This document shows positions 20,677 through 64,000 of a DNA stretch of 64,000 nt, piece after piece. How positions within the stretch are numbered: the first letter of the stretch is position 1; every line of letters begins with the position of its first letter. Under the pieces are notes generated by a model that searched no databases, had not been told where the DNA came from, and saw only the letters and a list, made by a program, of their open reading frames with translations. The position numbers and the translations under genes were made by a program. The DNA comes from Hymenochaete sp. R1 (lineage: Eukaryota; Basidiomycota; Agaricomycetes; Hymenochaetales; Hymenochaetaceae). The stretch spans positions 1 through 64,000 of the forward strand of contig JAFREE010000094.1 in assembly GCA_019400425.1 (NCBI GenBank). The letters are read 5' to 3'.

Positions 20677-21916
20677 ATGCCTCAGACAAAGAGTTGTAAG
20701 TCACTTTTTGGCTTGATATGTAGCAGACTCAATTATTGATCAACACATTTATCATATGGTTGTCAGCGGGGTCAGGGAGGAGAGGCAAGAAGCCTTGGGA
20801 GCCTTCGCCGATCCTTGATGATGAAAACTTGCTTAAGGAATGGAAGACGCTACTTGAGGAAGAGGACATTGCACGCCAGGATAGGGTTACGCACAGCGTA
20901 ACCCAGACAATTAGAAACTTCAGAATCTACGAGGAATATACGCATCGCAGGTCTGAGCTTTCAATAGAGCAGAAGGTCGAGAACGTCAAGCGTCAGAAGG
21001 AAACCGGAGAGAAAGCGATGATAGAGTCCATTCAAGGAAAGGGAAGATTCTTCGACGAACGTGACAGATTGCGCAAGATGTTTTGCGACTCGAGCGATGC
21101 TTGGTTCTCCAAGCGTTCTGAGCTCCATAGCACGAACCCCGCTTTATTGACTGCTGACCTCCATGAAGGAAGTCCGCTGGCTGCACCTATCGCCTTTCTT
21201 TATTTCGTACGCTTTGAAGTTCTATACAACAAGCATCTCAAGAATGTTAGACTCCCTTACTCTGATTTCCCTGCGCCCCTTACAGTGAAGCATGCAGCCG
21301 CCCTCGGGAAGATCCTCAGCGAGTTTGAAGGGCTGAACGAAGTTTATGAAGCGCGCTTGACCAGCTTATCGCGTAGACGCAAAGCAATGAAAAAAGCGCA
21401 GGAATTTAAACAAGATTCGACTTTCACTCAGAAGCGGAACAACTTGATCGATCTCAAGGATGCTGATATCGACAAGTTGAAAGAAGAGGCGGACAAATCC
21501 TTGAAAGTGATCCAGAAAAGGCCGGAATCGACATCTCGGCTTCCCGCTGAAATCAAGCTGTACTCGGCGTACCGAGTCAGAGATCGAGATATCGACGCGC
21601 AAATAAACGAGGACATACATAAGCTCGATTCGATCATGCAGCTTACACTTTCGATGGAGGAAGAAGAGGTCAAGAAGCTGAAGAAGACAGTGGATGACCT
21701 GAACGAAGCTTTGGCTAGGTACACAGCGGACGCGATCAGCAAAGATGTAGATCTCGTTAATGGTAAGGAGTGCAGACTATTGGGATGCTTGGAAATTATC
21801 CTGACAATTTTACAGGTGATAATTCCTCGGGCGGCTCAAAGAGATCTGCTGGAGATAGCACAGCCCCGGGCTCTGGTAAGCGTCGTAGAGGCGATCCGAG
21901 CAGCGCACCATGTTAG
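20677..21916 (+). CDS. Unknown expanded family, member A
   Basis: First of seven homologous genes in the window; no known family recognised. Exon 1 is 20677-20695 (19 nt, MPQTKS plus one base), exon 2 starts at 20767, and a 53-nt intron lies at 21763-21815. Shared blocks are DDENLLKEWKTLLEEE near the N-terminus, RNFRIYEEY, FFDERDRLRKMFCDSSDAWF, LAAPIAFLYFVRFEVLY, YSAYRVRDRDIDAQINEDI, and a Glu/Lys heptad-rich helix. After the last intron the tail carries a basic cluster, GKRRRGD, a possible nuclear localisation signal. There is no signal peptide or membrane helix. The stop at 21914-21916 assumes no further splicing; a possible donor at 21913 would still end within a few codons. Closest relative here is B, 525 bp downstream on the same strand. 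Confidence 0.78.
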
Positions 21917-22441
21917 TCACTATCCTTTGATCTGCTCGCATTCAGATGTTCTGACCTAGCTACAGAATCGATGACGGTCCAGCACGGTGTACGCTCACTC
22001 GATTCGCTTTTGACAATAGCTATACATTTTTGTAAAGTCGTGTCAGCGATAATGCATTGCATCTTTAGATAACCCGGGTCCCTTCTACGAATTCGAAAGA
22101 AGGAGCAAAGGATTGAATTGCTCGACATTGACTATTATTTTGAACTCATCGTGTAAAGGCAAGCCCTTATGTCCACGTCGAACCCGGGTCGCTGGCTTCG
22201 TCTCCTTATAGAATTCACAGCCCTCGCGCACATGCGATACGTTGCACTGAGAGGCGAGTTAAGGACGTTGATTAATGCTAAGAGGTTACTTTGTTCGTAG
22301 GAATTTCGCAAGAACGCATTCTGCAAAGCTAAGATACGTGCTCTATCGACTCAAGCTGGACCTGGACTTTGCTCCCCTCTTCCCTCTCCTAAGATACCTG
22401 TCTCTCCCCCTTTTAACTGATACATAATCCCCGTGTCTACT
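21917..22441. other. Spacer between family members A and B
   Basis: 525 bp. No gene seen. The last 90 bp before B are CT-rich, a common fungal promoter feature. Two ACCCGGGTC strings occur (about 22072 and 22187); their meaning is unknown. Confidence 0.45.
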
Positions 22442-23818
22442 ATGTCTTCTTCTAGTAACGGTATGCGCTTCTTTTCATTCTCGTGTCGAGTTCTGTTGCT
22501 AATACTTTTGATATGATGGCAATTCAGGATCACAAAGCAACGGAAACGAATCAGGACATAAGAAGCAGGCAAAGAACGGCACTTGGACTCCTGGTCCAAT
22601 CTCAAATGAAGAATCCCTAAGGAAAGAGTGGAAGTCCCTCCAGAATGCAGAAAACCAAGCTCGCATCAATAATCTCTCAGGTGTCATGTCAAAAGCGACT
22701 GTCTTCTTTAGGGATTTTGAAGGATTCACATTCCGTCGGACGGATATCACAGAAGAAGAAATACAACGGAAAATTGACGATGAGAAACGAAAGGTGAAGG
22801 AGAAGGGTGAAGGGGCAATTACAGGCAACAGGAGAATGAAAGGCGGATTCTTCGAAGAGCGCGATAGATTGCGAAAACTATTTCTCGACGCGTCCCAAGA
22901 CTGGTTCTTAGGCCGTCTGCAGAAGCACTACGACGATGCCTCCCGCCGGATGTTCAAAGGGGACTTGGAACGCAAAGACGAGGATGGGAATCCTTTGCTA
23001 TGGCGCTCGGCTCCTTACGCTTTCTTATACTATCACTACTTCATCGACCTATTCGGGCTCAGAGTCAATTTTTGGGATGCTTCCTCGACCATAACATCCA
23101 CCGCCGATGCCCTCCGACTTCGAAAAGAACTGGACGAATTTGATGGAATCGAAAGTGTTTTCGCCGTCCGATTAGCGACACTTGACAGCGCCCATCGAGT
23201 TCTAGAGATGGCGCAAGACCGGAAGCGACCCTCTACGATCTCGCTCAAATGGAAGAATCTGCAAAAATACGAAAATGCCGATCTTGCTCAGTTGGAAAAA
23301 GAGGCGGAAGAAGCTCAAAAGAAGAAACCGAAAGGGCCGGATACAAAAAAAAGGCACGCGGAAGAGAATCGTTTATCTTCTGCTTGTCGTGTGCAAGACG
23401 CGGAAAAGGCTAAGAGGCAGATCGAGGAAGATATCAGGACTCACGACTCCATCCTTCTACTTTCCCTCAAGATGGAGAAAGACGATGTAAAGAAATGGGA
23501 GGAAACTATCATTGATAAGATTAACACGCTGCTAAACGTTCTGGAATCTTACACTTCAGCTGCAATTGAAAGAGACGCGATGATCAATGAAGGGGAGAGA
23601 CCGAAGAAAGTGAAGAAATATTTAAGGACGGAGCCGGGGAAGCAGCTCGTCAGTAGCCTGAAAAGAGCTGTACCTGCTGAAACACAGCTTTCAGCCAGCG
23701 TCGGCAAGAGAAAGAAAGGGGAATCGAGTAATGCTTCAGGTATGTTCCTTTGATTGAATCACGAATCTCAGAAGTTGCATGTTGCTGAATGCTGCGCGTA
23801 GGGACAACAGGACCCTAA
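22442..23818 (+). CDS. Unknown expanded family, member B
   Basis: Exon 1 is 22442-22460 (19 nt, MSSSSN plus one base, phase 1); exon 2 resumes after the cag near 22528. The main frame gives ISNEESLRKEWKSLQNAENQ, FFEERDRLRKLFLDASQDWF, APYAFLYYHYFIDLF, ACRVQDAEKAKRQIEEDI and a long Lys/Glu-rich helical stretch. The C-terminus carries SVGKRKKGESS, matching the basic tail of A. A last intron from about 23741 to 23800 would end the protein as ASGTTGP with TAA at 23816-23818; unspliced, it stops at 23753. B and A share FF(D/E)ERDRLRK(M/L)F and are the closest pair. Predicted soluble, possibly nuclear; function unknown. Confidence 0.78.
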
Positions 23819-24087
23819 TCTGTTAGTCTAATGAGAGGTCTCACTTTCATTTTACAGCTTTTTCGGGAGCACATAATTTATTCCATAACTATATACTATA
23901 CATCGCTGTCAAGGCTACAAACGGTCTTTTCATATTTCAATCCATTGTTTACAAAAACTAGAAAATCGTGTTTAAAAGGAGATACATCCATCAACGCCTT
24001 CATCATGAAAACGTGGTAAAAAATGAGACTTTGATAATGAAAGATGATACCAGATATTCAAATGGAAAACGATTTACAAACCTCATA

Positions 24088-27000
24088 TTAGAAAGGCTTG
24101 ACTAGGCCGATCCTTACTGAATGTGCAGCAAACTCATCGAAGTACGAGGAGTCGGGAAGTGATGAAGGGGGCTGTTCGTGAAGTAACAAATAAGAACCAG
24201 ATATCGCCGATGGCCAAGAAAAAAGAACAGGAGAGACCGGGCGAAGCTTCTTGAAAGGAAGTGGCTTGACGAGACCCAGAGAGACAGCGTGAATCACAAA
24301 CTCGTCAAAGAAAGTGGGACAAGGAAGCGTCGTGGGAGGAGCTTCATCCAGTAACGAGTCGCAGTTCAAGCTGCGTCGATACAAGTCCTGAGTAGAGCAA
24401 GTAATAGGAGCCAACAAAGATGAAGGAGCCTGCTCATCGAGTTGAGTATCAATGGCAGGAGCTAGACAAGCAAGTTCAGAGGGAGCGGCTGATTGACGGG
24501 TCTGGGGTGAGAAAGGTTCTACAATACCCAGTGAGACGGCCCTGTGCGCGAACTCGTCGAAGAAGTAAGAGCGGAGAATATCCGCAGGAGGTTGCTCATC
24601 CAAGAGTGAGTCATAGTTGAGACTCATTCTGTAAAGGTCTTGCGTAGATGAGTTACTCGGTGTAGACGAAGTGGCAACTTCAATTGCAGTAGACTCTTGA
24701 CGTTGAGAGAGAGCCCTGACTGTACTCGTCGAGACTGAGGCCATGACTGACCAGTCTCGTTCGTATTCGCAATTCATAATAGGGAAAGGGGTGTAGAGGT
24801 CCACCTCATATGACTCTTCACAGCTGAAAGGTGGCGACTCGGTCTCCAGAACGCCACAAATGTCGGCATTGGAATTTGTCTTCGCCATCAGCTCAGAGAC
24901 CGACAAAGACTGGTCGGAGCCGTCCGAAACTGCGAACTCGGTCGGATGAAGCGAAAGGGATGACTGTATAACGTGATTAGAAAGTTGCGTTCGCAAGAAA
25001 AACGATAACTCACAGAGGCGGACTTTTCGATGGCGTCGTCAACCACGTTCAAATCTGAAACAACCTCCCTAACGATAGTGTCCCGCGCCACATCGTGCTT
25101 ATTTCCTTTCCGTTCAAAACCGACATCCTCCCATTCAGACTCAACACTTAGGTTAGGTTCGTCGATTACCAATATATTTCCTCCGTCAGGCCCCAATCGA
25201 GTGTCCAACGCGTCTACGAGTTGTCTGCAAGTGAGGCTGACTTCACTCTCTGCGGAAGGGGAGACCGAACAGACATGTTCGTTGTCCATTTGGCCTAGTG
25301 ACGAAGACGTAGTTAGCCCGCCTATTGAGAGTCGATCCTCAATTTCCACATTCTCGTCACCCGAACCAGTAGATAAAATCGTTTCCTCTAAACTGGGAAC
25401 CGCTATGTCCTTGGTCAGGTTGACTTTCTCCGTCACCATCTCGAAAATCGCCTCGCAGCTATCCATATGTATGAAAGGAAGCTCATCGTCATCGTCATCC
25501 AGATCGTGCTTCACTGTATCGATCGAGGCATTGGCTGTCTCCAAAAGTTCGATCGATTCGCTAAGATCAAATGTTTCGTCCTCGTTTCTGACCAAGTGAT
25601 CGGCTCGTTCACCGCTTGAATTTACTCCCTCGCTGAATAAGAATGTTCTATCCTCATTGCGGACATCAAACTCGTCCAAGGCCGCTGCCTTCTTGACCGG
25701 AAGATCTGGCACGACCTGCCCGTCCGCATTGATGAACGTGGTGCTATTATCCGAGTTCTCGAAAAGGAGCACAATCCCGTAGTCACCAACATCGGACTCT
25801 TGTTCCACCAGTTCAACCGATACCACGCTGTCATTCGTGATACTCGTACCCGAACTTGATGCGGGCGGATTGGCCTCCGAGTTATCTAAATTGCACAGCC
25901 GGTCCCTTATAGTACCTTCGCTTTCAGCGAACTGTGGGTGTCCAACGTCCTTGAAACGAACCGCGTCCTGCTCTTTGACAATATCCGCTAGAACCTGCGG
26001 AACCTCGTCAATGCAAGTGACACTATCAACGACGGTCGAGCCCTCGGAAGCTTCGGTCCGAGTGCTTCCATCCGCCTTGTGGCCAAAAACAAGCTCATCC
26101 CCCTCCACAAGCGCAGTTTCGCAAACGTCTACCACACATTCTGAGCAGTCAGGTTGGGTTTCGACTATATCAGAATGTATGGTGAGCTTGTTTGTAGGAC
26201 CGGAAAAGGATGTGTCGCTCGTGGGAACGACCTTCCCTTCAGTACCATCCTCGTCAGTAGAGACTAAACCGTGATGGTCAGCCTCAAACTTAGGGGTTCG
26301 ACGAGGAGGTGAAGGAAGAGCCGCGGATGTGATGGAGGGAAGAGTAGGTTGAGAGTTGTTGATGGAATAAGGCTTGAGCGTGCCTTCAATAATGGATTCA
26401 GTGGCGGCGCTGAAAATGGACTTGATAGCAGGGCGTATAGTAGGGCTGGCAGTAAGTTCAAAGGGACAAGGGGATGATTGTGCCCGGAATGTTTGATCAG
26501 GATCAGATGAACTGAGGGTGAAGGAGCTCTGAGCATCGATACCAGCTGCAAAGACATCGTCATTCAGAAGCGGAGTATCTGGCGTTCTAGGAGTTCTGCG
26601 CGGTCGTGGGCGTGGGCGTCGGGGCGAAACCTCAGTGAACTTGATTGAGGTGTCACCTAGTGCGTTCTAATAAAGACTTGAGCGACGCCAAAAAAACTAC
26701 TAACAAATCGTACGTACTGCAGTGAACCTATCGACGGCGGACATACGACCTGGTTGGATGTCGATAATAGGCATATCCTTTCCAATGAACTATCAGAATA
26801 AGATATCGGAAGGTTTTAACCTCGGCTTACCTTCGGGGGCTCGTCTTCTGATTGCAACTTACGGCACGCCTCGCTATCGTTGAAAAGCATTCGAAGTCGC
26901 AGTAGCGTATACCGAAAGTCCAGCTGCTTCGAGTATGAAGACTGAAAGAATTGTAAGAGAAAGTGACGGCAACCAAGGCGGACAATGCATACCGTCATAT

Positions 27001-27875
27001 ATAACCATGCCATCCCCACCACAGCGACCAGAAAAATGCGCGCGGGAAGGACGAAGCACACTGGGCCAGTACCGGTTGATGGTGATGCTGCGAGTCGACG
27101 CGTACGATCGGCGACAGTGTCAAGGACGAGAGAGATGGGTCGGAGGACAGAAGCATAGGATGAGAAGCAATCGAAGATGAGAAAAGCAAATTCGTTTACT
27201 GGAGCATTGACAAGCTCAAAAACGAGGGAAGGACGAGTAATAAACGAGAAGAGGGTGATAAAGCAAAAGAGGAAGACTAGCGGCAAGGATGCTCGAGTAA
27301 GGACCGGGGTGGAGCGTTGAGGCTGAGCAACAGCGACGGGAATAGGGAGAGAAGCTTTACTTGGAAGAGATGTTTGGTTCAAACTGGGAGCAAAAGGGAA
27401 GATAAGCGTAGAAGGGCATGTATCGGATGGTGTGATGGGCCACGAAGGCTGCTTGGAAGATAGAGCTGTGGGGCTGACCGCTGCTGATGCAGGAGCTGAG
27501 ATACTGGGAAGAAGAGAAAAAGCTTCAGAATGGGTAGTTGAAGAGAAAACGTGCTCAGCGGTAACCTAGTGAATGATTGTGGTAACTGCTGAGGTGCGAA
27601 CATGGAGAGAATGGACTATTTAAGAACACGCCGTATCATGTGATCGCGGCTGACAATAATAAAACAAAACAAATAAACTAAACATCGACCATATCCATAA
27701 GTCCGCTTCGCTCTTTCCAGACGACTCAGTCGACAGTAGTAAAGGCCTGTGTTTCTTGGAAATGTGCTGGCTGGCCGGCCGACGAAGGAACACGGTCGAC
27801 ATTGTCGGCGTCACGCTCGGTGATGGACGAGAAGACGAGGGCAGAAAAGAGGTAAAGGATAGAGCGGCTTCGCAT
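24088..27875 (-). CDS. Orphan secretory-pathway protein: signal peptide, membrane segments, acidic region, three C-terminal repeats
   Basis: Not recognised. ATG 27875 follows a TATA box and gives a signal-peptide-like start (MRSRSILYLFSALVFSSITE). A large frame then has hydrophobic stretches LPLVFLFCFITLFSFIT and VCFVLPARIFLVAVVGMAWL. Introns at about 26831-26773 and 26695-26669 join EDEPPK to FIGKDMPIIDIQPG and DRFTA to NALGDTSIKFTE. Then come an Arg/Pro run (PRRPRPRPRR), over 450 residues of acidic Ser/Asp/Glu-rich sequence, and an intron near 25013-24964. The end holds three imperfect repeats of the form (D/H)E.PP.....(S/T).FDEF..(H/R).V.(L/I)G(L/I)V(K/E)P. TAA is at 24088-24090. How the signal-peptide exon joins the next exon (near 27570) is uncertain because its donor is weak. 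Confidence 0.6.
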
Positions 27876-27980
27876 TGTGTATGCACAAGAAGAAATAAAG
27901 TAAGGAGAGAGGGTAAAGTGAACTGGACGAAATGAGAGAAAGGACAGAAAAGATGGGGGAAATCAAAGGGGAGGGACGAG

Positions 27981-27988: not shown

Positions 27989-29373
27989 GACTCACGAAAA
28001 CGTTAGCCTCCTTCCAGCCGCCTCTCTTCTTCATTCGACCAGCCCCCGATGGTCATTGATCCAGTTGATGTCATTATGACCACTGAGAAGTAGATTATAT
28101 CACATCGCAAGTAAATGTCGTGTCGCTTTTCCTACATCGACATGCATGGTAGACGGATGCCAAATTGTCCAAAAAAGACGCGGTACCAGTTTTTCAAGAA
28201 AAGTCGAATTTCAAGTTCTTTGGGCATTGATTATCACGTGAGTTATTCGCACAGTCGTCGAGTCGACGTCGTCACTGGCTCGTCAGTTTCATCTCGCATT
28301 GACATTGATGTGTTCAAGTTTCGGTGCGCTCTTGTCAAAGACACGATAGTGTACCTAGGAGATTCATGCTCAAACCAATTTAAGGCAAGAGATATGCCAA
28401 GCTTGACAAAAACGTATGCTAAAGTCTTCGATGAGAGCCAGTTTCTGCGAGCGGTAAATGTCTTCGTTAGATTTCGTTATGCACCTACTAGTAGGGCCAT
28501 CGGAATCTCTTTGGAGGTAATATCCTCCATCCCAGATACCGATGACTTTGGCCATAACGAAGCAACAAAAAAAGAGGAAGGGAACATTCATCATCTTCAT
28601 ACAAGCAGTTTCGACTATGGCATGAGACAGATAGAAGTGCTCACCCCATAATTCGGTGCTCTGCAACAACGAATAAGGAGCCAAAAGGGAAGTATTTGAC
28701 ATACGACGCGACGACTCAAAGGGTTTGCAGACACCCTCCATACGCCAATTGGAAGCACTGGGTGTGGGGGATTGGAACGGAGAGGCAAGTGCCCAAGAAC
28801 TACGTATTCTCTACTCACTTTTTCAGACTTCTAAACTACTCTTCTAAGTTTCATGCCAGTATGATTCTCCTTTACGCTGAGTCTTCGAGTCGTAGCGAGT
28901 ATCGTGGTCGACGCGCAAGTACCTGAAGAAGAACACCGTGCCTTCAACGCCTCTACTGACTTCGTGGGAAGACATTACGTAAAATGCCCCAAGCGCTGCT
29001 TTTGAAATTTAGTAGATGATTTTGGCCGGTCACTATCTTCAAGTTTTCCGTTCGATATATAGTATGCATTGCGCCAACCAACTCGAATACCTCTGCTACG
29101 ATACCTCCCATTCCGGACCAATCTTGAGAAGCAAAGCTAAGAGTACGCTTCATCTATGCAAAGTGGTGATAATTAAGGCAAACAAATCTTGGTGCCATAT
29201 CCCTCGTTCTCATCCGGGCCTTCAACTTCTCCACCCCACTGCTTCCGACGAGCTGCATCCTGACCCACCAATATTATCCATTTATTCTAGGTTCTTTTCG
29301 GGCCATACTCAAGTAAGACACAGTTTATTTGAAATTGTTTCTGTGCACCTAAAGCTGATTCGCTGCATCAGGG
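27989..29373. other. Intergenic region upstream of family member C
   Basis: About 1.4 kb. A 178-codon plus-strand frame at 28115-28651 has no recognisable motif and overlaps a 123-codon minus frame; neither is called. At 29156-29174 the string ATGCAAAGTGGTGATAATT also occurs, with one mismatch, upstream of member F (61045-61063). Confidence 0.45.
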
Positions 29374-30462
29374 ATGTCAAGAAGTTCTACTCTAAATGAG
29401 GGTCAATGGGCTTTGTTCAGTAACGATGAGGAACTGTTCAAAGCTTGGAATGAATTTCAGAAAGGGTTAGCAGATGCTCGCTCCACGAAGATCCGGAATA
29501 CTGCAACAAAGAGCACATCTGACTACAGGCGCTACAAGAAAGGCCCCAGCAATGAAACAGAGAAGCTCCAACAACGACGCGATAAGAGGCTCGATGACGC
29601 TGTAAACCGTTATTTCAGGCACTGCAAAGCTATGCGCGAATCATTCGTAGCGGCGAGCAAGGATGTATTCGAGAATCGCATGGATATTCATCGTCTCATT
29701 CCTACCATTCTGGAGGACGAACTCACCTATAAACGCCCTCTGGCAAGGCCCTTTACCTTTCTGTATTTCCATTATTTCCTCAGCGACCGCAACATAGAGC
29801 TGAAGAATAAGCTCGAAGATGCCAAAGTCCTTTCCGAAATCGACTCGCCACGCAACTCCGCAATTCATGCCCTCGAGCTTCGCGAGTTGCTAAAAGATGT
29901 CAATGAGAAGTTCTTTGGCATCAAGCAAGTCCATGCCAAATTTAAGGCCCATACAGATGCTGATATTGCTCAACTACAGTCTCGAAACAAAGCGTACCGG
30001 GCTCAGGCTCGAGAAAAGAGGCTGAAGGCCATTATAATGCCCTTGAAAGCGGACATTGACGGTTCGGCGCAAGAAATCGATGAAGCTGGGAAGGTATCCG
30101 TGGAAAATGATCCTAGCTTTTCTCAGGATCTGGAGGAAGAGTATGTGAAGCAAATTGATGAAGATCTTGACTTAGCTGATAAGACGGTCCTCCGAGCGTT
30201 CCGGGAAGACGAAGATAACATTGAGAAGCTTGGCAAAATCGTCACGAAAATTGATGAGCTTGAAACTAGCCTGGAAGAATACGTCCAGAAAGTGTTGGAG
30301 GAGAGGGGCGAGCATGATGCGGCTTTGAAGGGCACTGCCCATGGGGAAGCATTCTCGAATTGGATGGACGCGGAAGGCAGAGAAACATCATATAGAACCA
30401 AGAGATACACACCTCCCGAAGAAGATCGGTCCGCAAAGAAAGGGAAAATGAGTGCAGCCTAA
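29374..30462 (+). CDS. Unknown expanded family, member C
   Basis: 362 codons, called from ATG 29374 (MSRSSTLNEG). This ATG lies just after a good 3' splice site (ctgcatcag at 29362-29370), in the place where F begins exon 2. No ATG-containing 19-nt exon is found upstream, so either the 5' exon has lost its start or this internal ATG is used. Shared blocks are NDEELFKAWNEFQKG, MRESFVAASKDVFENRMDIH (Trp of the WF motif replaced by Val), LARPFTFLYFHYFL and EEYVKQIDEDL. A C-terminal segment GEAFSNWMDAEGRETSYRTK precedes the basic tail RSAKKGKMSAA. The last 60 residues match F best, so C and F form a subfamily. Confidence 0.75.
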   Translation: MSRSSTLNEGQWALFSNDEELFKAWNEFQKGLADARSTKIRNTATKSTSDYRRYKKGPSNETEKLQQRRDKRLDDAVNRYFRHCKAMRESFVAASKDVFENRMDIHRLIPTILEDELTYKRPLARPFTFLYFHYFLSDRNIELKNKLEDAKVLSEIDSPRNSAIHALELRELLKDVNEKFFGIKQVHAKFKAHTDADIAQLQSRNKAYRAQAREKRLKAIIMPLKADIDGSAQEIDEAGKVSVENDPSFSQDLEEEYVKQIDEDLDLADKTVLRAFREDEDNIEKLGKIVTKIDELETSLEEYVQKVLEERGEHDAALKGTAHGEAFSNWMDAEGRETSYRTKRYTPPEEDRSAKKGKMSAA

Positions 30463-36034: not shown

Positions 36035-36098
36035 GGCAGTGAAGATAGGTGGACCGTGAGCGTGAAGACGAACAGAAATTTCCGAGTACGAACTGGTA

Positions 36099-42104: not shown

Positions 42105-43248
42105 ATTGGGCGGGAGTGTTCCACCAGAGGGGCTCTACGTTGGATGCAAGTTGAGAGAATGCGATTAAAAATTCTGGAAAAAATAATAATAATGGTTAGC
42201 TACATCTGAGATGGTGCAAGCAGTAGTGAAACGACGGAGATAGAACAGGTTATAGAGGTCAATACGCCAATAAAATGCCTGGAGGAAGTCTACACCGTGC
42301 ACTGTGTCGCCTAAGCTTATCGCGTTGCGCACAGGTACGCGGTCATTCTTTCTCTCTTCATCCGAATGTCAAACAAGGACTTCAACCTAACACCAGCAAC
42401 AACATTCTAACCGTTGACGAAGTTCACTGCCCCTGTGATGCCATGCGCAGGGATGCAAAAGGGCACCATGGAAGAAAAGGGTCGCTGAAGATGCGTGTTG
42501 TTCTGGACGGTTGAAGCGAAGGTACCGGGGAACACGAAATGCAAGAAGGCGACGACGATGACCGAGAAGCTCACCTTTTGTCGATAGATGAATTAGGAGG
42601 CAGTGGTCGACACAACAATGAGCAGCACGAGTTGTGGACGACGGCGACGACGGCAACGAAGAGGGAAGATTGGCGAGGAGCGAGGAAGAGATGAGAGCAG
42701 AGGAGTGGGTTGGACGACGACGACAGGCACCGACTCGACTAGCTGATGTGAACTCGCGACGACCAACATCACACCAAAGTAACATTTGGCCCGGCCCTAA
42801 TATTGTCACAGTGTAGTCACACATCACGTGAATTGTGTGACATCACATTTTTCAATACTTTCTTTTCTTATTTTTTTCTCTCTTTTCCTTCCTCCATCGT
42901 CTGGGCCTATTTTTAATCTGTACAATTGATGTTTTCCTATATTTTTTCTCGTAAAACTTGAAAGCACAAAATGATGTATACTTTGCTCATAGGCAAACGT
43001 AAAGACTACTGACATGCTAACTTTGCGCTTTTCTCACAGGTCATCCATTCATACCACATCATACGCCCTTTGTACGTCCTCCCTCTTCATTTCTTTCTAC
43101 TTTCATCTCCTACCCTAGTCACTCCTTTAGGTGAGTACTCATTTCAGCCAGTAAATGAACCCAATGGCTTACAAACTATACCCAGAATCACTCAGCTGAA
43201 GCACCAGCACCCTTCCGTTCTTTTAATCCGGTCAGAGACCACTCTTGC
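42105..43248. other. Divergent intergenic region between CDC42 and F-box gene
   Basis: About 1.1 kb, with CT-rich runs (42860-42930) on the F-box side. Short frames on both strands are not supported as genes. It probably holds the two promoters and 5' UTRs. Confidence 0.5.
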
Positions 43249-45318
43249 ATGAGACGCTTCTTTCGTCGGTCCGAACAACGTGACTCCCAATCCCAACTTA
43301 ACACTCACCAGGGTCCTCTCGTTCTCCCTCGCGGCCCTCCTCCTGCCTTCTCCGTCGCAAATTCAGTCTCAAATGCAAGCGCGCAGACGAAGCCGTACGA
43401 CCAGCCCACCCTCGTTTCGCCACCGACACCTCCCCCGCCTGCAGACAAGTATACCCTCGGTGCACTCGTCAACTCCCTTCCGAACGAAGTCCTCTCAGAG
43501 ATATTCTTCTGGTGTACGCCGAATGTAGAAGATCACAACGATGTTTCAGATGACGAGAATGCGTTGTCTGTGCGTGATAAAACGCCTTACCCCGCCCTCT
43601 CCCTCTCACACGTCTGCAAACACTGGCGAACCATTTCCCTCTCCTCCCCACGCCTCTGGACATACTCCCGCATCCCAATCAAAAACCAAAAGCTCGGATC
43701 GGCTGTAGCCCTCATGAGTCTTTACCTCGCCCGCTCGAAGCAATGCTCCGTGTTTCTCGACTTTGACTTCGTCGAGAAGTTCAGTTACTATAAGCATGTG
43801 ATGGGCTTGTTTGAGCGCATGGTTGAGGTGGCAAAGACGGTGAGGGGTGAGAGGGCCGTCGAAGATAGTTTCTTGGCGACGCATCTTGAATCGAGCAGTT
43901 CGGAGAACCGGGCAGCAAGGGAAGAATGGTACTTTTGGTCCGCGAGGCCGAAATTACCACCCACCCAGGAGCTTATCACTGCTTCAACTGGACCCATACC
44001 TGGCAATGGCTCTCGCTCTGGCACTGGTTCTAATCATGGCATGACCCGCTCTACATCTAATCCAGATTTTAGTACGGCCGATACAGATGCGGGCATCCGC
44101 GACTATCTCCAACTCGCCAACACCCCCGCCACCGACTCCATGTCACCCACCCTCTCCGACCCCGTCCCCACCGTCACTTTACGCGCCCTCCGACTCGCCA
44201 TCGGCTCCTTCATACTCGAGCCATACCACTCCTGGGCCTCCTCACTCACCTTCCTTGTCATCAAGGATCTCAACAACTACACAAACCTCACCAACGTCTC
44301 CGCGCGCGAGATTCTTTCTACGTTCCCGCTCCTCGTACATTGCTCGCTGCATATCGACTTTGAGGTCGCGGAGCAGCTTGCGGAAGTCGAGGCGGTGGAC
44401 ATGCTGTGGCCTGAACACGTGCAGGAAATTGCTAATGGTGAGGCTCAACAAGGACAAGGGCAAGTTGGCGATGTGGATGCTGCTCCGGCAGACGCTGCGA
44501 ATAGAACCCTCGCCGCACGTGTTGACCTTCCCTTCCTGAAAAGCCTCTCCCTCTCTTGGAATGACCTCGTCAACATCGGTCCCCTCCTCGACGCCCTCCA
44601 CGTTCCCGCTCTCCGCGAGCTCGAACTCGATGGCGTCGCGCCCGAGTCTCCCGAAGCTGGTACTGGCACCTGGCCGCACCTTGTCTGGCTTCTCCGGCGC
44701 ATGCAAGCTGATGCCGCTGCTCTCGGAGTCGGGGTCGCTCTTGGTTCAGGTGCAGGTATCACACACCTCATACTGACGAAACTCGACCTTTTCCATGCCG
44801 AGTTTCTTAACGCCTTACCCCTGATCGGGCCTACCCTCGAAGGGCTCTGGCTCGAGGAAGTGTTGATGGACGAGAGCATCCTCCGGGGTATGCAGCCTCT
44901 TTTTGTGAATCCAAAGCTGAAGACAGTCGTGATGATGGATGCGTACACGTTTGATGTTGGGGAGCTGGCGAGGATCATGAAGGAAGTGGACCGTGATGAT
45001 GTGGGTCTTGTTGATCCGAGGAGCGGAAGATCTGATGCCAGTGGTGCAGGCGAAGGTGCATATGAAGCGCCGGTGAAAATATACGTTGACCGATGCGGGG
45101 AAGTGACGCCAGAGCATTTCGAGCTCATTCTCGAGCTCGGTGTTGGCAACTTGGAGATCGGGCCAGGGAGCTTAGCCGAGGCGTTTGGTACCCAGTCCGA
45201 ATTCGAGGATAATGCTGTAAATGATGAAGCACTCGAAGGCCAGGACGACGGTGGAGAAGGAGCGAGTCCGAATGGGGACGTCAGTCCCCGTGAGGCGTGG
45301 ATTGAGGAAGTCGAGTAA
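43249..45318 (+). CDS. F-box protein with leucine-rich-like C-terminal region
   Basis: Likely substrate-recognition subunit of an SCF (Skp1-Cullin-F-box) ubiquitin ligase; target unknown. Single exon, 689 codons, ATG 43249. The N-terminal about 75 residues are basic then Pro/Ser rich. The F-box lies at about residues 77-135: LVNSLPNEVLSEIFFWCTP, an acidic insert, then YPALSLSHVCKHWRTISLSS and PRLWTYSRI. The rest has repeated leucine-rich-like strands (VTLRALRLAIGSFIL, FLKSLSLSWNDLVNIGPLLD, ALRELELDGVAPES, LEGLWLEEVLMDESILRGM) and an acidic C-terminus. Many such genes are expanded in Agaricomycetes. The reverse strand also stays open over 44445-45404, which I regard as a shadow. Confidence 0.88.
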   Translation: MRRFFRRSEQRDSQSQLNTHQGPLVLPRGPPPAFSVANSVSNASAQTKPYDQPTLVSPPTPPPPADKYTLGALVNSLPNEVLSEIFFWCTPNVEDHNDVSDDENALSVRDKTPYPALSLSHVCKHWRTISLSSPRLWTYSRIPIKNQKLGSAVALMSLYLARSKQCSVFLDFDFVEKFSYYKHVMGLFERMVEVAKTVRGERAVEDSFLATHLESSSSENRAAREEWYFWSARPKLPPTQELITASTGPIPGNGSRSGTGSNHGMTRSTSNPDFSTADTDAGIRDYLQLANTPATDSMSPTLSDPVPTVTLRALRLAIGSFILEPYHSWASSLTFLVIKDLNNYTNLTNVSAREILSTFPLLVHCSLHIDFEVAEQLAEVEAVDMLWPEHVQEIANGEAQQGQGQVGDVDAAPADAANRTLAARVDLPFLKSLSLSWNDLVNIGPLLDALHVPALRELELDGVAPESPEAGTGTWPHLVWLLRRMQADAAALGVGVALGSGAGITHLILTKLDLFHAEFLNALPLIGPTLEGLWLEEVLMDESILRGMQPLFVNPKLKTVVMMDAYTFDVGELARIMKEVDRDDVGLVDPRSGRSDASGAGEGAYEAPVKIYVDRCGEVTPEHFELILELGVGNLEIGPGSLAEAFGTQSEFEDNAVNDEALEGQDDGGEGASPNGDVSPREAWIEEVE

Positions 45319-49751: not shown

Positions 49752-50987
49752 TCAAACGTGTCTGGCCCTCTTTGAGCGATCATCGTCGGCAGGAGGTGGC
49801 GACCTCTTCAGGAAATACGAGAACATTCTCCCGCGATCCGTCTGCAACCAGTTCTCAAACTTCTCCTCCATTTCGGCGTCGCCAAACGTCTCTGGATCGT
49901 TCTTAATACTTTCTTGCGTTACGCTTATGACCTTTTCCAAGATATTGTCAAGTTCTTTGACCCTTTCAACAACTTCGTCTAATTCTTTCCCCATATTTGT
50001 TCGTTCGTCCCTGATCAATCCCTTCTCAATTGACACCTCGAAGTCCTCGTCTTCATTCATTTGCTTCCTATAATCTCGATGTTGGGCACGATATGCGTTC
50101 AGGAAATCGTGTTCCTGTCTAAAAGAAGGCAACGTCTTTTCCCGGAAGCCCCGCTCCTTCCTAAAATCCAAGAATATCTTCTGCAAACTCTCTAAGTCTG
50201 CCTTTTTGAAATTCTCAAATGCATTCTCCTTCCGTGTCCTGGAAATAGTTGGGTATTGGACACTCTCAAGAGCAGAGTTGAGGTGAGTCTCACGGATACG
50301 TCGAACGGTGCGGATGGCTTCGACGTCTGCCATTGACTTTTCCAAAGTAGCGCTTAGTGCCATGGCTTGTGGCACTGTTTCGTGTGGCGGGTTTTTGGTG
50401 GAGGGAATAACAGCATTCCCGAGAGCTCCGTCGTTGAGCATGACAAAGTGATGATGATAGAGGAAGGCGAGAGGTTCGGAGAGGGAGTGATCCACGTGAA
50501 GCTCAGTAAAGAAAGCATTTCGATCAAGAACATGAGCTTCCATGCGTTTCAAGAACCAGGGACTACAAGCCTGCACGAATATCTTTCGGGTGTTACCAGT
50601 CGTCGTGATAAACTTGTCTACTGCTTTGTTCTTTTTTCCCAAGCGTTCCTCTTTGAGTCCCGATATTCTTCTTGCTTGTTCCTCGGCGGTTCTTTCTCTT
50701 TGCATGATAAATTCTTCGTGATATCGGAACACGTTTGTTATAAAGTTCAGCTTTGAGTGAACTTGTTTGTCGTATTCGGCCTTCTCGAATCCCTGCAAGG
50801 TTTTCCATTCTCGAAGAATGTCTTCATCGGTAACGATAGGCAATCGCATCTGGGGGCCTTGATCGCCTTGCCTTTTCCGTTTGTTGGACCCTCTGGATAA
50901 TTGATCTCCTTGGAATGGCATTGGCGTCAGTAATTAATTAGGTTGTCATGAATTAGAAAGAAACCTACGGGCTGAAGACTGGGACAT
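49752..50987 (-). CDS. Unknown expanded family, member D
   Basis: Only minus-strand member. Exon 1 is 50987-50969 (19 nt, MSQSSA plus one base), the intron runs to an ag at 50910-50909, and exon 2 is 50908-49752. Blocks are a basic N-terminus (NKRKRQGD), TDEDILREWKTLQGFEKAEY, VFRYHEEF, TRKIFVQACSPWFLKRMEAH, FFTELHVDHSLSEPLAFLYH and NAYRAQHRDYRKQMNEDEDF. A helical heptad region follows, then FENWLQTDRGRMFSYFLKRS and the basic tail RSKRARHV. Closest to G: both have VDHSLS.PLAFLY, LN.ALES.QYP, and an identical 19-bp context over the start (CGCGCCATGTCCCAGTCTT). Predicted soluble; function unknown. Confidence 0.78.
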
Positions 50988-52328
50988 GGCGCGATAGGGT
51001 GAAAACAACCCAACTCAGCTGAGTAAGGTGAAGAAATAGCAAGGTAGAGTTTGTACGTCGTTGCTCGTTTAATACAGGGTCCTTTGCGCTTACAAATATC
51101 TGCAATGTTTTCCATGCACATTGCTTTGTGACCCTAGAGTATTCACGTCGACTTTCGGTTTACTAAAATTGAAGTTGTGGAATGAGTGAACGACGTTCAA
51201 ACTGTGCCTTTTCGAATGAGGTTTTCAAGTTGAGAGCCGAAAGAACGTGCTTACACAGCAGAAATGGTTCAATTTGTGGACCGGAGCCCGATAAATGCGC
51301 CGAAATTTGGGAAATGTATTGTAAGTTTGTCTTAAAATTCGCGAGATAGACAATTCTGAAGTAACCTCTTATTCTCCCGCCGAAATATGGTTAAATTTTC
51401 GAGTTTGCGTGCAGAAAAGGCTCCACACACATACTTAACAATTTTCTACAACATTTGAATGATTAATTGAGGTCACAAATCCTTATTTATCTGTAGTGTT
51501 AGTATGGGTTTCGGTGAGTAATACCAGGGGGAGCGTTTATTTGTGATAGACAATATGCTGTTCAACTTTTAAACGAATTTTGAACTAGTCGTAGCTCGCC
51601 ACAAAACAACCAGGACTTCTTCAGCAAGTCCAAGATAACAAATGGGCTTTCAGGTTTCGAGCAATTCGAGCGTCGCTTTGTTATGTGGCGCTTTGAGTCG
51701 CCCATATCTGTTTATCTCGCCTTTCTTTCTGCAGACTGCAGGGAGAGAAAATGTGAAGATAGTGATCGAAAACTGGGAGAGATGCATCACACACTTCTGG
51801 CTAACCAAGACGTAGCAACCCCCCTCCAAAGTCAGTGCAAGCAAGCAGGAAAGAATTTCAAGGTGACAGAGGAGATGAAATAGATCATATGCCCCCTTGC
51901 TCCATAACATTCCACACCGACAATTTGGACTTGGAAAGGCAAACGAAAACAACTTAATGCGAGTTTGTCGAATTTCCAAAACTGAATAACCAAAACATAC
52001 ACACTACTTAATGAGTTTAGACCTGCAGTCAAACGTGTATGGACAGAACGTTTTTAAGAAGGAGGAGAAACGGAGACTAGGAAAAGCGAGAGAATTACGC
52101 TGATATACATTGATATAGGATTAAAAAGTTGCCAAGTTTTACGAGGATGGCATGGAATTTTCTCTACATCTGCAAGAAAGAAAATTGTGTGCCTCGAATC
52201 TGAAAGCGAAATGAAATGACAAGTCGTCACGAGTCGTAAAAAAGAACGGGTGCTGTCAAGGATGAAATTCCATCTAAGCAAATCCGAGTACGTCCATTTC
52301 CGCTGAGCGTTTTATGCACCCCAGTTCT
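50988..52328. other. Intergenic region, AT-rich
   Basis: About 1.3 kb between the start of member D and the 3' end of the large zinc-cluster gene. It holds only short frames on both strands and no recognised repeat. Confidence 0.45.
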
Positions 52329-57072: not shown

Positions 57073-59245
57073 GGCTGTTGATGATGATGAAGATAGTGGT
57101 GAGGGAAGGGAGGGGAAGAAGAAGCGGTGGCTGAGAGAGCATGCATTATTTAAAGTGATGTGTTATCAAACAGAAATCTGGAGAGTTCTCCGTTGTGTTT
57201 TGTTTCTGTGTCCAGTCGACGTGAGCGCTCTTCTCTTTCGGGTGATCGTTCAGTTCAGTTCGAGATGCCTTTCGGAATTGTTCAACGCCCGCCGCTTACT
57301 TGATTCAATGCATTACGTCAGCCCCGCTCAACACGTCGCGGGTCCTCGGCAACTCAATTTTTGATTTCTTATCTTGAATGCCGAACGCAAATCTTTTCTA
57401 CGCTACTCCAGAAATAGCAACGATCTGCAGCTCTCCATCACGCCTCGCTTGGTCAGACGTAGAAAACAACGAGGCTTTGGCTTGTACACGGCACTCATAA
57501 GCTTAAGCCAGCACTCGGCACCACGCCTCATCTCATCAATTATCGAGCACTTTTACAGCCTTAGTTCAAGCTCAAGTAATATCATGCATCATCAGCCATC
57601 AACGTTCCTAGGAACAACAACTGCCTTTTTCTGTTTCTTGGTCGTCATCCGAGTCTCCCTCCGTTGCGCCAAACCTCGCATCTGAAGCACGATCACCCCG
57701 CGTTTGGCGACTTGTCGAATTTCGATATCGCTTTCCTAGTCCGCTCGTTCTTTTTGGGGCACGCCCTGAGGCGTATTCGGGTTTCTCGTCTTGATATGCT
57801 GCTACTTTTCCATGGATCTTATGAGGCGTCGTTGTAGCACCGTGGTACCGGGTAGTACAACGTGAACAGGTAGCTTCCAGTAGTATCGCCTTGCGTTAGC
57901 TTCCTGTCTTTTCTTTCCAGAGAAAACCAGTGCTAATACATTTGTAATGCAGTATTTGCGAATTGTTCGCATGGCCTACGCGTCATCTTCCATCAACTCG
58001 ACGTTCAGAGGTCCATTTCAAACACAAGGCACGAACCCTGCATCGGAGCAGGGGATATGACTGATATGACTACGGGAGAACCGACCCGACCCCTTCTGGA
58101 ATCCACTGGCACGCGTCGTTTTAGAAGCCAGGTCGCAAGTCCCGAATCTCAATCAATCAATCTCGTTTTTTTTCAACGCCAACCTCCGACCTCCGAGATG
58201 CCTATTTTCTCGGCCCCTCCTTGCGTTTCGCAATTCATTTGCCCACATGGCACATATGCGCCATTGCACCGCTGGTGATTACCCATCTTTCAATGCCTCA
58301 AACGCGTGATGCTACGGAAACTATCCTCCCCACCCCCCGCGGCAAGCATTGCGTATCCTCGTTAAGATACGCAGAAAGCGCCCCTAAGTAAGAGACCAAA
58401 AAATAGATGTTCCAGGGTCTATCTACCCCATCACTTCGACGTCTAAGCGTATCTCTGCGCGCCAATCGTCATCGGAACATCGGCGTGGGGCTCCCTTCAT
58501 CCCCGCTTTACTTCCCGCGCCGCGCCCTCTTCTACGTGGGGAGTTGGAATGTGCGCACTCCGAATCTCATTGTATCTTATCACGCTTCTCACGGCTTTCG
58601 TACAGGCTTCTATCGAAATATGCGATAATAAGATGGCGATTCCCCTTCGGATGAGCCACTCTTTCCCCCTCGTGCCACTTTACACACGTCGTCGTCCACA
58701 AAGGGAAGATTGGCGAACCGCCGCTCTGGCCGGTTACAACACGCACATGGGCCCATATTTCCCCCAAATAACTGACTTGTAGGCTTTGCCACTACGACAA
58801 TCTTGTAAAAGGAAAAGGCACATCTTTCGATAACGGGATCTTCTCTACGGTATGCCCCTGATAATACACTCGAATGGATTTTGCATTGTTCAACTTCGCC
58901 ATCTCTAAACAGTTACTCGTGGACTGCTACTGTATAGGCGAGCTCCTTGCTTCGCCCCCTTTCCCTTCAGTTTGACTGCAAAGACGTAATAGAGCTTAGG
59001 ATAACTCATCGACAAAGTGACGTGTAACAATGAGAGTCATGATCACACTTTGCAGGTTCAAAGTCGCAAGTGGCCAAACCCGAATTATAACTGCATACAA
59101 AAGGGCCCCGTTCTTTCAGTGATCCTTCCTTCTCACTGCTTATCTTCAGATTTCAGGCGACTCCTCTTTCAGCCTCATTCCCCCTTCTTTTCATTCTTTC
59201 GGCGCGTATAGAAACAGTCTCATCCTACTGTACGAAAAGTGCAAC
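57073..59245. other. Divergent intergenic region
   Basis: About 2.2 kb between the zinc-cluster gene and family member E. Short frames (57374-57685, 58057-58278, 58407-58628) have no motifs or partner exons. The last 100 bp before E are CT-rich. No tRNA or repeat recognised. Confidence 0.45.
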
Positions 59246-60588
59246 ATGTCTGATTCACGTGGAAGTGCGTGCCCCATACCTTTTTGTCTTGTTAGTGGCT
59301 AAACTCTTTCGTCCTCTCAGAGAGAAAATTGGATAGGGATCCACACCCTGGAGGCTCTCAATCCAGCTCCATATCACAACGCAAGCCGTCGGTCTTAACG
59401 TCTAAGCTTGGAATATTCACCCTCTCACCTATCAAGAACACCGAAGACCTACTCGTAGCATGGGAAGCAATAATGGAAAGCGAGAAGAAAGCACATTTGA
59501 AGATCGCCGGCAATATGTCGACCATTCTCCATTCATTCCGGATGTATGAAGAATACTATCATCACAAGCAAGGAGATTCGCCAGACATGGTGGCGAAGAA
59601 CATTAAAAATGAAGAAGAGAGACGTGAGGAAAAGATCGAGAGCACTGTAGACAGGTACACAGAGACCTGCAGCGAGTTACGCATAGCCTTTCTAGAGGCG
59701 AGTCGTGGTTGGTTTACGGATCGCCTCCAACGACACCATAGGGACCACAAAACGGACAAGCTTCTTCCTGCTTTTTTTGCCGAGCTCGGGCCTCAACATC
59801 CTCTATCAGCGCCCCTCGCTTTGCTTTATCAGGCCTACTACATCGATGTGTTTGACAAGTTCTTGGAAAAGGTCGTACGCCCTACTTTGCGTGACCCACC
59901 CCACGCAGCAATGAATGCTGCTTTTACTCTTCGTGCACGCCTCAATCGCACCATTTTCGAGCTCCATGGAATCAACGTTGTCCGCGACGCACGTGAAGCT
60001 CACCTCACCGGTCGAGTCTCAGAAGTCCAAACTCACCTGGCCAAATTCCGCGAAAAATCACTCACGGCCAAAAAGGACTCGTTAAAGAAATATAGTCAGA
60101 ATATTTCTCGCATCCCTGAGCTGGAGAAGAAAGTGGATGAGGAGCGCCGGGTGAAATCGAGTTCTGGGAAAGAGGCTGTTGAGCCTTGTGCTGGGATAGA
60201 GGCGGAACTGTTGAATGCGTATCGGGCCAGAGACCGGGCAGTCGAGGATCAAATAACAAATGATATCGAGAAACGCGAAACAGTGATGTTGCAGGCAGTT
60301 GAAACGGAGAAGAATAGAGAGTTGAACGCGCTGGATAAGCTTGTCAAGGACGTCGATGGGCTGATCGACTCACTCAATATCTTCATTAAGACCGGACTAC
60401 CAGAAGGAGAGTCCTTTGATAGCGGATCTCTCTCCGAGAAAGATGAGAAGGAAAAAAAGTTTATGGAGTACCTGCAGTCGGAGGAAGGGGTGAGGGACTT
60501 ACAACGTCTTGAGGAACTCATGCCCTCTGGCGAAAGTAATACTGAAGAACTGCCTGAGAGACCCAAGAAGAAAGGCCGCAAGGAATGA
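59246..60588 (+). CDS. Unknown expanded family, member E
   Basis: First of the E-F-G tandem. Exon 1 is 59246-59264 (19 nt, MSDSRG plus one base); exon 2 is 59321-60588. Blocks are NTEDLLVAWEAIMESEKKAH, FRMYEEYYHHK, CSELRIAFLEASRGWFTDRL, HPLSAPLALLYQAYYIDVF, NAYRARDRAVEDQITNDI, and a heptad-rich helix (ELNALDKLVKDVDGLIDSL). A short acidic stretch then precedes the basic end RPKKKGRKE. TGA is at 60586-60588. It has the full WF motif and the clearest N-terminal block but no close partner among the other six. No signal peptide or membrane helix; function unknown. Confidence 0.8.
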
Positions 60589-61208
60589 CAACTTCGGCTT
60601 TCGGAATCCGACCCCGCTTTGCACGTTTGTTCATTTTATAACATTATCGACAAAGTATTAGTTACAAATCACTATTATGCTAATTTCCATAGTATTTAAA
60701 GACTCGATAAGAGGGGAGAATGAAATATATGACATCAAAAAAACATGGAATCTACTTTTTGAGTAGTTTAGTACCGTCAAGGCAAAAGTACGGAGGGACG
60801 ATCCGAGCTTCGTCATAAGAAGAAAACAGTATTTTAACGAGTGAAATTTACCCATAATACTCTCTGCCAAATCAGGATTCTTTTATCGGTAGAGAGCGTC
60901 AAGCACGTCGAATTGAAAATCCGAATGATCCAATGCCAGTGGCCATCACTATCAACTCCAGATTAGACCCTATTCAGCTACACCACTGGCAAGTCCGTTG
61001 AGTGCCAAGGCTTGGCGAATATATACTAAGTGCAAAGCGTATTCATGCAAAGTCGTGATAATTGTTTTACCATTTACCACAAAAAGTTTCTGTGCCACAT
61101 TTCCCAGACCCTCCGCCCCCTCGCGGACACATCTTTCGTTCTCCCGTCCACGTTCGACGAGCCACGTTTCCTACAGCACCAGCAAGCGCACGACTTGCAT
61201 AGTTACCA
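60589..61208. other. Spacer between family members E and F
   Basis: 620 bp. It contains ATGCAAAGTCGTGATAATT at 61045-61063, shared with the region before member C, and a CT-rich stretch just before F. No other gene seen. Confidence 0.5.
61045..61063 (+). promoter_or_regulatory. Conserved 19-bp upstream element of members C and F
   Basis: ATGCAAAGTCGTGATAATT differs by one base from 29156-29174 upstream of C. In both genes it lies about 150-190 nt before the exon-1 donor region. It may be a retained promoter element or simply residual homology of duplicated flanks. Confidence 0.5.
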
Positions 61209-62445
61209 ATGCTTCTTCGAAAATCCGGCAGTAGGTCCCATCTTACTTCTTGGCGACTTTCTCTAATACGCCACTCCAGGGAAATCGGAGGGATCTGGTT
61301 CCCGTTCAAAGGAGACGGTCGTACCTGATTGGAAACCATTTGAGGGTGACAAAGATCTGCTCGAGGCATGGAATCTGCTTCTTACCAAGGAACAGGAAGC
61401 GCGTTCCAAGCTCACCAACTCCTTATCTGCCATTACGAAGGACTTCAGACGGTATGAGGAGCACATCCGTCGTAAGGCTATTGAAGAGTCGCAAAAGGAT
61501 TTCGAAATGGATGAAATTCGAGCTGAAAAGCAAAAGAGGGTCGAAAATGCGCTACAACGGTTTTTTGATACCTGTAATCAGCTTCGCGCCGCACTTGTGA
61601 AGGCGAGCGATAATTGGTTCAAAGGCCGCCTAGCTACCCATGGACTCCATGCAGATATCTTCAAGGCTGAGCTCGATGTGGATAACCCGATCTCTGCTCC
61701 TCTTGCTCTTCTGTATATTCGCCACTTTCACGACATCGATGAGAAAAAACTCAAAGAAGCGAAAGTCCCGTCCACAGATGACACTATTCCACGAGACGCT
61801 GCTCTTCAGGTTCTTGAACTCCGAGCGGTGATGTCCGATGTCATATTTGGAGTTGATCTGGTCCGTGATGCATACGTGGCCCACAACGACCTTGCACTGC
61901 AGGAAACAAAGAAATCGCTAGATGGTCACCGAAAGTCTGCTCGAAATACGAAGATAAAAAATCTCAAAGAGCTCGAAAGCGCTAACATTGACGAACTCCT
62001 TCGGAACGTCGAAGAAGCGTGGATCAAAGCCCAATGGAAAAAGAAGACGAAGCCTCGCCACCCTTCGCAATTCAAGCTGCTAGATGCATCTCGCGCTCAA
62101 AGACGTAGCTACGAACATGAGATAGACGAAGACACGCAGTACAACGAAGCAATTATTCATCGATCGTTCACAGACGAAAAGGAGGAAGTTCAGCGGAAGG
62201 TCGACAGCATCAAAAAGAGAGTCGACGAACTCACTATAGCTCTTGACGATTTTATTCAGGCAGTGCTAGAGAAAGGTAGAGGCGAGTATGACGCAGCGTT
62301 GAAGAACATACCGGAAGGGAAAGCATTTTCGGGATGGTTAGATGCAGAGACACAAATTGGGACGTCGCACAGGTCTAAGAGATACACGTCACCCAAACGC
62401 GACGAGGAACGCCCTTCGAAGAAGGGTAAAGGCAGAGAGATCTAA
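61209..62445 (+). CDS. Unknown expanded family, member F
   Basis: Exon 1 is 61209-61230 (22 nt, MLLRKSG plus one base, one codon longer than the other copies); exon 2 is 61280-62445, joining to KSEGSGSRSKETVVPDW. Blocks are GDKDLLEAWNLLLTKEQEAR, FRRYEEHIRRK, CNQLRAALVKASDNWFKGRL, NPISAPLALLYIRHFHDI, DASRAQRRSYEHEIDEDT, and a heptad-rich helix (VDSIKKRVDELTIALDDFI). The segment GKAFSGWLDAETQIGTSHRS matches the end of C. The tail is basic: KRYTSPKRDEERPSKKGKG. An internal ATG at 61507 would omit the N-terminal block, so the spliced start is preferred. Confidence 0.8.
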
Positions 62446-62979
62446 GTCTACCACGGTGAGTGTCGTTTAATTATTTTGACAAAAGATAGAGGAACTGACC
62501 TGATTTTATGAGCATCGTAGATAGCTTTCTGGTAGTCCCAGAGATCCTAGCTTCAAGCTTTCCCCGTTAGTCGCAAAGTCTCCAATTCAATGTCTAGACC
62601 TGTAATATTAATTGTTGAATGTTGATACTACTTGGATTAAGCGTCGAAATTGAAGTCAGATTTGTGTAGAGAGCTTTGTAAAGGAACAAAGTTTGAAGCA
62701 AAGAAGTATCCATTATGTACAATCGAGCAGGAGTGGATATTTTGTCGACAAGTTCGGGTTCGGATCGAAGTCCGATCCTATTTTGCGTCAGTGCGTTTGT
62801 GTTTGTAATGCCGTATGAGTTGTTATGTGTAAATAAACCTGAAATACCCTGAGCGCAAAGTAAAGCATGTGAGGAATGAATGTATAAGTATACCTTCACG
62901 TCCTTTTCTCTCTCTAGCTATCCTACTCTTCTCCACGATCAATCTTAAACGCTCTTCGGGCCTCTTTCGCAGCCGCGCC
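62446..62979. other. Spacer between family members F and G
   Basis: 534 bp. A TATA-like tataagtata lies about 100 nt before G, followed by a CT-rich leader. No other gene seen. Confidence 0.5.
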
Positions 62980-64000
62980 ATGTCCCAGTCTTTCACTCGT
63001 ATGTCTCTTCTCAATCCGTGCTGCTGTCGTTTTTTTTCACTAATGATAACGTGATTTAAGAAAGAGGGTCGGAGTCCAGAGGGAACAACAACCACAATGA
63101 ACAAGTTGGACGTGATCTCCACAAATGGTTCCCAATCGAAACAGACGCAAACGTTGTCAATGCATGGCAGTGCATACAGACAATTGAGAAGGACCAGCGC
63201 GAGAAAAAGGTCACCAACCTTTTGTCGAAGGCTATCACGCGGTTTAGATACAACGAAGAACATACGATGCATATAGAAGGGCTCACCGGGGGGGAACGCG
63301 GGAGGATGATTGTTGATCTTGAGACCAAACGTCAAAAAGAGGCTGACGAATGTGTCCGGCTTTTTGTTGAAAAGCGCGACGAGATGCGACATGTGTTTGT
63401 GGAGGCAAGCAAGTCATGGTTCCAGAAACGCCTGACAGACCATGTTCACGATCGGAATTTGTTTCTTACCGAACTCCGAGTGGACCATTCTCTCTCCAAA
63501 CCTCTTGCCTTCCTCTACCAGAATCATTTCTCCGAGCTCTACAATAGAAGACTAAGGGATGCCGCTAATCCTTCTCCCAAGACTCCGACTCAAGCAATAG
63601 TATCACAAGCCATGATACTGAGCACCTCTATGAAAGACGCAATGGCAGACCACCAAGTTCTCAATGCAGTCCGCCATGCCCGGATAGAGCACCTCAATAC
63701 CGCTCTGGAGAGTATCCAATACCCACCTCGATCCAGATCGCAGAAGTTAAACAAGTTCAAAAAGCTTAGAAATGCTGATATCGAGAAATTAAAGAAGTCT
63801 TACCTGGTGATTAGGGAGAATAAAGGCGCTGCCGGAGAAATTCCTCATTATGCTCCCGTGCAAGACTTTTTCGACGCTTATCGTGCTCGGCATCGACAAT
63901 ATGAGAAGCAAATTGATGAAGATATCGAAATCGAGATTTCAGTTTTGAAAGGCATAGCAATAGAAGAACGGGAAAACATGGAGAATGAGCTCGACAAGGT
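62980..64000 (+). CDS. Unknown expanded family, member G (runs off the window)
   Basis: Partial gene, 3' end missing. Exon 1 is 62980-62998 (19 nt, MSQSFT plus one base) and exon 2 opens at 63061 and stays open to 64000. Blocks are ETDANVVNAWQCIQTIEKDQ, FRYNEEHTMHIEG, RDEMRHVFVEASKSWFQKRL, VDHSLSKPLAFLYQNHFSEL, LNTALESIQYP and DAYRARHRQYEKQIDEDIEI. It is closest to D over the whole visible length, including the start-codon context. The basic tail seen in other copies would lie beyond the window. Minus-strand frames over this region (62823-63392) are shadows. Confidence 0.78.

Follow-up and report, generated by a model that had tools for sequence, protein, structure and literature searches.

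A locally amplified family of putatively nuclear, helical proteins at three loci of a Hymenochaete genome

The genome of Hymenochaete sp. R1 (27.8 Mb in 336 contigs) contains at least 18 intact copies of a gene family at three loci, eight each on contigs C331 and C287 and two on C14. Common descent and a shared gene structure unite these genes, as do selective constraint, seen in the pairs examined, and a motif that recurs upstream of the copies. The window, i.e. the whole stretch of 64,000 nucleotides analysed, comprises positions 1-64000 of C331 (93,640 bases). With a probability of roughly 55%, we consider the family to be one that was amplified locally, is kept by purifying selection and encodes co-regulated nuclear helical proteins that form homo- or heterodimers and serve as adaptors or scaffolds. 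It is best read as an undescribed family, yet one of a familiar kind, namely the local tandem families of fungi. Three handles on its function are on offer: an import-like tail, a helical core predicted with confidence, and a motif present at most copies.

All seven members recognized in the window (A to G) are present in the predicted, partly tandem arrangement, and their gene models, long frames with tiny first exons, match the predicted coordinates (Table 1). Seven is thus right as the count for the window but too low as a copy number, with eight copies on C331 and at least 18 in the genome. When the open frames of the contig were compared all against all by blastp, every pair among A to H matched (28 of 28; E from 3.7e-81 for D-G to 2.6e-7 for B-H), a likeness far above chance. 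The three ordered blocks described before are seen when A to G are aligned, with 13 invariant columns; across the 18 copies one tryptophan is invariant and five more columns are conserved in at least 90%. As even the closest pairs are only 40-41% identical on C331 and about 58-60% elsewhere, the copies are not one gene assembled repeatedly, and an assembly artefact is ruled out.

Table 1. Family copies and upstream motif occurrences on contig C331 (motif offsets in bases from the start of the copy named).
Feature	Position	Strand	Details
A	20677-21916	+	exons 20677-20695, 20767-21762, 21816-21916; 377 aa; end after removal of the 3' intron; tail KR-x13-KRRR-like
B	22442-23818	+	exon 1 22442-22460, exon 2 22528 (or 22555)-23739, exon 3 23802-23818
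C	29374-30462	+	ATG 29374; modelled as one coding exon, without a located small first exon
D	49752-50987	-	19-nt first exon, ATG 50987; long exon open frame 49752-50933
E	59246-60588	+	ATG 59246; long exon after a 19-nt first exon; non-bipartite tail KKKGRK
F	61209-62445	+	ATG 61209; 22-nt first exon, then long exon; basis of both structure models
G	62980-64181	+	19-nt first exon and long exon ending 181 bases past the window
H	67304-68566	-	eighth copy, just outside the window
GCAAAG, reverse only	20450		A
GCAAAG	22323-22328	+	B, -119
GCAAAG x2	29131-29163	+	C, -240 and -213 relative to the start adopted here
GCAAAG	51082-51087	-	D, -100
GCAAAG	58978-58983	+	E, -268
GCAAAG x2	61032-61052	+	F, -177 and -162
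GCAAAG	62698-62860	+	G, -282 and -125

The extent of the family beyond C331 depended on the query. With E, D, C or B as query, convincing matches were confined to C331 and pointed to a single-locus family. This idea was overturned by query A, whose five matches on C14 and C287 were weak (E 9.3e-7 to 0.05), and by queries from the second subfamily. All five open frames fetched from these contigs via A match the A-H profile (E 2.5e-21 to 2.1e-13), and the second-subfamily queries brought the totals there to two and eight, plus a broken copy with five stops (C287:123780-124253). The number 18 is a lower bound because the genome searches score the best candidates only. Query B also gave a weak match at C57:86336-86467 (E 0.31).

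In a tree of the 18 copies, the eight copies of C331 lie on one side of a branch with full support (100/100) and those of C14 and C287 on the other, which indicates that the loci expanded mostly in place; the C287 copies form no single group of their own. A long exon after a tiny first exon is the layout common to both sides. The first exon could be located in 13 of the 18 copies (19 nt in ten, 22 nt in two, 31 nt in one) and is followed by a phase-1 intron in all 13, the splice joins being checked via translation for A and B only and read from the sequence before GT in the other copies. Within C331 the pairs A-B, C-F and D-G are well supported, and E and H, whose position is not fixed by this tree, are reciprocal best matches. 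The pairing of C-F, D-G and E-H in gene order suggests a past duplication of a three-gene block, with D and H inverted. Gene turnover is visible in the broken copy and in younger pairs of 53-58% identity. In other pairs of C331 third positions differ at 63-72%, saturated or nearly so, and these pairs are therefore old. Of the rapid, lineage-specific expansion proposed in the original prediction, expansion at local loci was confirmed; 'rapid' is unproven given the age of the pairs within C331, and 'lineage-specific' could be argued only from absence in databases, which is a weak basis.

Selection was assessed in three pairs chosen among 153 possible ones, with dN/dS of 0.28/0.91, 0.36/1.46 and 0.48/1.68 (ratios of about 0.25-0.31), where dS above 1 is rough and pairwise averages may miss selection at single sites. 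In 12 of 12 quarters of these pairs dN is below dS. The tested pairs are under purifying selection, show no sign of the diversifying evolution that had been expected, and represent working genes under constraint. These data bear on the view that the copies form an orphan family, once or weakly functional and loosely kept, that drifts by chance turnover and has no common job. We regard it as unlikely: although the divergence is large, conserved positions are lost in some copies and one copy is broken, there are 18 long intact frames with dN well below dS, and splice phase, tail and motif are kept across two anciently split subfamilies.

The family is without match in the libraries searched. In agreement with the original prediction, neither a known domain in Pfam, PADLOC and other libraries nor a strong profile match to a described family was obtained. 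Pfam searches covered the seven window members (A represented by its second exon, G truncated where the window stops), H and the ten copies of C14 and C287; none of these 18 exceeded a curated cut-off, and no HET, nucleotide-binding or similar domain appeared. DUF7605 (PF24564) was considered and rejected, as it resembles E only (one of seven members; E 0.022, below cut-off), the other six being without match; the one match to it found in the genome lies on another contig (13.8 bits versus a cut-off of 27). Also below cut-off is a QWRF match of the 98k copy (E 0.0057). PADLOC returned one match in one of the seven window members (E 0.33), sequence searches of the PDB nothing significant (best E 0.05 with query A1 and 0.41 with query A4), and Rfam no match within the window.

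From a protein database that may hold few fungal proteins, query F retrieved nothing at E<=1, and query D a single match, a 96% identical protein (P0001) from a public metagenome. A search with the family alignment gave none at E<=0.01, which says little because it missed even this 96% identical copy although D is part of the alignment. No family like A to H was listed in the literature searches, which leaves room for one described elsewhere. RSIDELD is the C-terminal motif of the Serendipita DELD effectors; a relation to these was dismissed, with zero exact matches of the pattern in the genome.

Allorecognition or defence, a role suggested by the original prediction, would make the copies non-self sensors, or effectors either of somatic incompatibility or of defence against mycoviruses and mobile elements, diversified by turnover. 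Such a role could account for local arrays of diverged copies without known domain, for the broken copy and for several younger pairs. In a passage of PMC8229728 the mechanisms of somatic incompatibility in basidiomycetes are called completely unknown, which would leave room for new components of allorecognition, and a tie to somatic incompatibility would matter, if true. However, the purifying dN/dS ratios, with no quarter above 1, and the lack of any HET, nucleotide-binding or PADLOC match leave the proposed role unsupported. Likewise, the metagenome counterpart of D, at 96% identity, shows no unusual allele divergence, as far as a single counterpart considered without a neutral rate can tell. 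We judge a function in defence or allorecognition to be improbable. The data likewise give no direct evidence for effector targets, the third role named in the original prediction.

The proteins are predicted to be all-helical and devoid of enzyme domains. In the structure model of F (pLDDT 81.8 for the whole and 90.2 for the core; the models rest on 7-8 sequences) the predicted core consists of two helices, 42 and 54 residues long. A long helical hairpin is predicted to hold the conserved Trp/Arg/Phe positions, and is followed in the model by a long C-terminal helix, which could form a coiled coil, and a disordered tail. The absence of membrane helices noted before was borne out, the 19-residue maximum of mean hydropathy being 0.44-1.4 in B to H (scanned without exon 1); in A, a peak of 1.92 at residue 350 falls within the translated 3' intron. 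The matches listed by fold searches against the PDB are generic helical bundles, none of them significant; families absent from those lists may still share the fold.

Among the folds listed are some long-helix proteins of viruses and phages (all E >0.05). Together with the multiple copies, they could hint at a protein derived either from a transposon or from a structural protein of a virus, domesticated or active. Against such an origin stand the local clusters among ordinary genes, the spliced first exon common to the copies and the absence of repeats of at least 24 bases flanking or linking E, F and G. Moreover, no PHROGs match is better than E 0.016, each being confined to a single member, and scanning viral contigs with F and one C287 copy as queries gave no match. 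We regard descent from a mobile element as the least probable of the explanations considered.

Three features escaped the original prediction: the clusters on two further contigs, a C-terminal tail resembling a bipartite nuclear localization signal (NLS), and a shared upstream motif. The tail pattern KR-x7-15-[KR][KR] is present in 13 of 15 testable copies compared with 5.4% of internal windows, where the spacer range was chosen after viewing the tails and paralogous tails are not independent. The bipartite form is missing in E and in the 98k copy. The count omits the tails of the 81k, 119k and 101k copies, which a 3' intron probably interrupts; if they are counted, the fraction becomes 13 of 18. 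NLS-like patterns occur in cytoplasmic proteins, too. As a sequence pattern, the tail nevertheless suggests that the proteins are probably nuclear.

The motif GCAAAG occurs in sense orientation within 300 bp upstream of 12 of 17 copies (6 of 8 on C331, 6 of 9 on C14 and C287) and in either orientation in 15, with two copies having neither. In 477 other non-coding windows of C331 the corresponding frequencies are 7.8% for GCAAAG, 17.2% for CTTTGC and 24.3% for either. Based on a background of 12.5%, the mean of the first two, p is about 5e-8, a value that is uncorrected for the ~4096 six-mers and refers to a motif picked among the 6-8-mers of the same 17 windows in which it was scored. The 80.2k copy was left out as its start was not located, the starts of C, C14_20k and C287_72k are approximate, and the ATG of C287_101k is assumed. 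Among 14 neighbouring genes the motif was present in sense in one and in reverse in three, scored over 500 bp before the open frames as opposed to 300 bp before the start of the family copies. Promoters shared by descent could inflate the count. With this reservation, the copies are probably co-regulated, and the combination of NLS-like tail and shared motif would fit nuclear, co-regulated proteins. Provided that the motif is genuine, the whole set is under a single regulator, and knowing when this regulator is active would point to the function. An F-box gene between C and D (open frame 43159-45318) has two reverse GCAAAG (window 42981-43026), located 178 and 138 bases upstream of that frame.

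Based on the protein anatomy, we propose that the family provides paired nuclear helical adaptors. Local duplication at the three loci would have generated the at least 18 intact genes, which purifying selection would keep. A single DNA-binding regulator acting on TGCAAAG may switch the copies on together; the proteins may then enter the nucleus by means of the bipartite import-like tail and, as homo- or heterodimers, serve nuclear complexes as adaptors or scaffolds, the divergence between copies setting the choice of partner.

Tandem families limited to a lineage are common in fungi, where they evolve by birth and death. The present family resembles them in its local arrays, diverged copies, broken copy and lack of domain matches, and differs in that most copies, in both of two subfamilies that split anciently, have the import-like tail, the tiny phase-1 first exon and the upstream motif. 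At the HD1/HD2 mating-type loci of basidiomycetes, diverged nuclear proteins that pair through helical regions are encoded in clusters. Here, too, there are clusters of diverged, putatively nuclear proteins with predicted helical regions that may pair, but the homeodomain is absent among the 17 Pfam families listed for the seven members at E<=10, and at least 18 copies occupy three loci. CAAAG, the core of the upstream motif, is also the core of the pheromone-response element of smuts, which is bound by an HMG-box protein. Since the base preceding CAAAG differs, being mostly G in the present family, this likeness is a lead only. It is tempting to speculate that the three clusters constitute a combinatorial nuclear pairing system in which diverged helical partners are co-induced via TGCAAAG, an HMG-box regulator of sexual development being one candidate inducer, and assemble in the nucleus into specific hetero-oligomers that would, for example, recognise or manage the partner nucleus of a dikaryon; we give this extension of the adaptor proposal very little credence.

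The neighbours of the family are ordinary genes, encoding Mak10, SUV3, a WD40 protein nearest THOC3, NDUFV1, a polysaccharide lyase, an F-box protein, an ABC transporter and a metallo-beta-lactamase-fold protein. A Fungal_trans match slightly above its cut-off, a sub-threshold Zn-cluster match and the relic of a KDZ transposase listed below agree with a fungal origin of the DNA. An orphan frame of 369 aa, 'I' (C331:75683-76789), begins with a region containing LLDAW, ends in KRKR and was not counted as a copy. It is not listed in the search with the A-H profile, reaches E 0.014 at 3% probability in hhalign, and scores 0.3 bits as a whole and 6.9 bits in its best stretch with the second-subfamily profile; it may be related to the family very distantly. 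A broken partial copy of 'I' (C331:66590-66976; 76% DNA identity over 363 columns) lies between G and H. A short frame on the minus strand (C331:77634-78029) shows 45% identity with H across 40 residues (E 4.8e-4) and may be the remnant of a decayed copy. Within the window, a 592-aa frame (24891-26666, minus strand) matches neither Pfam nor another place in the genome at E<=0.01. A KDZ transposase match with internal stops (178 bits) is located at C260:1572-2438, the sole place found in the genome search, and an 80-base inverted repeat of 92.5% identity at window positions 1538-1811 resembles a small foldback element.
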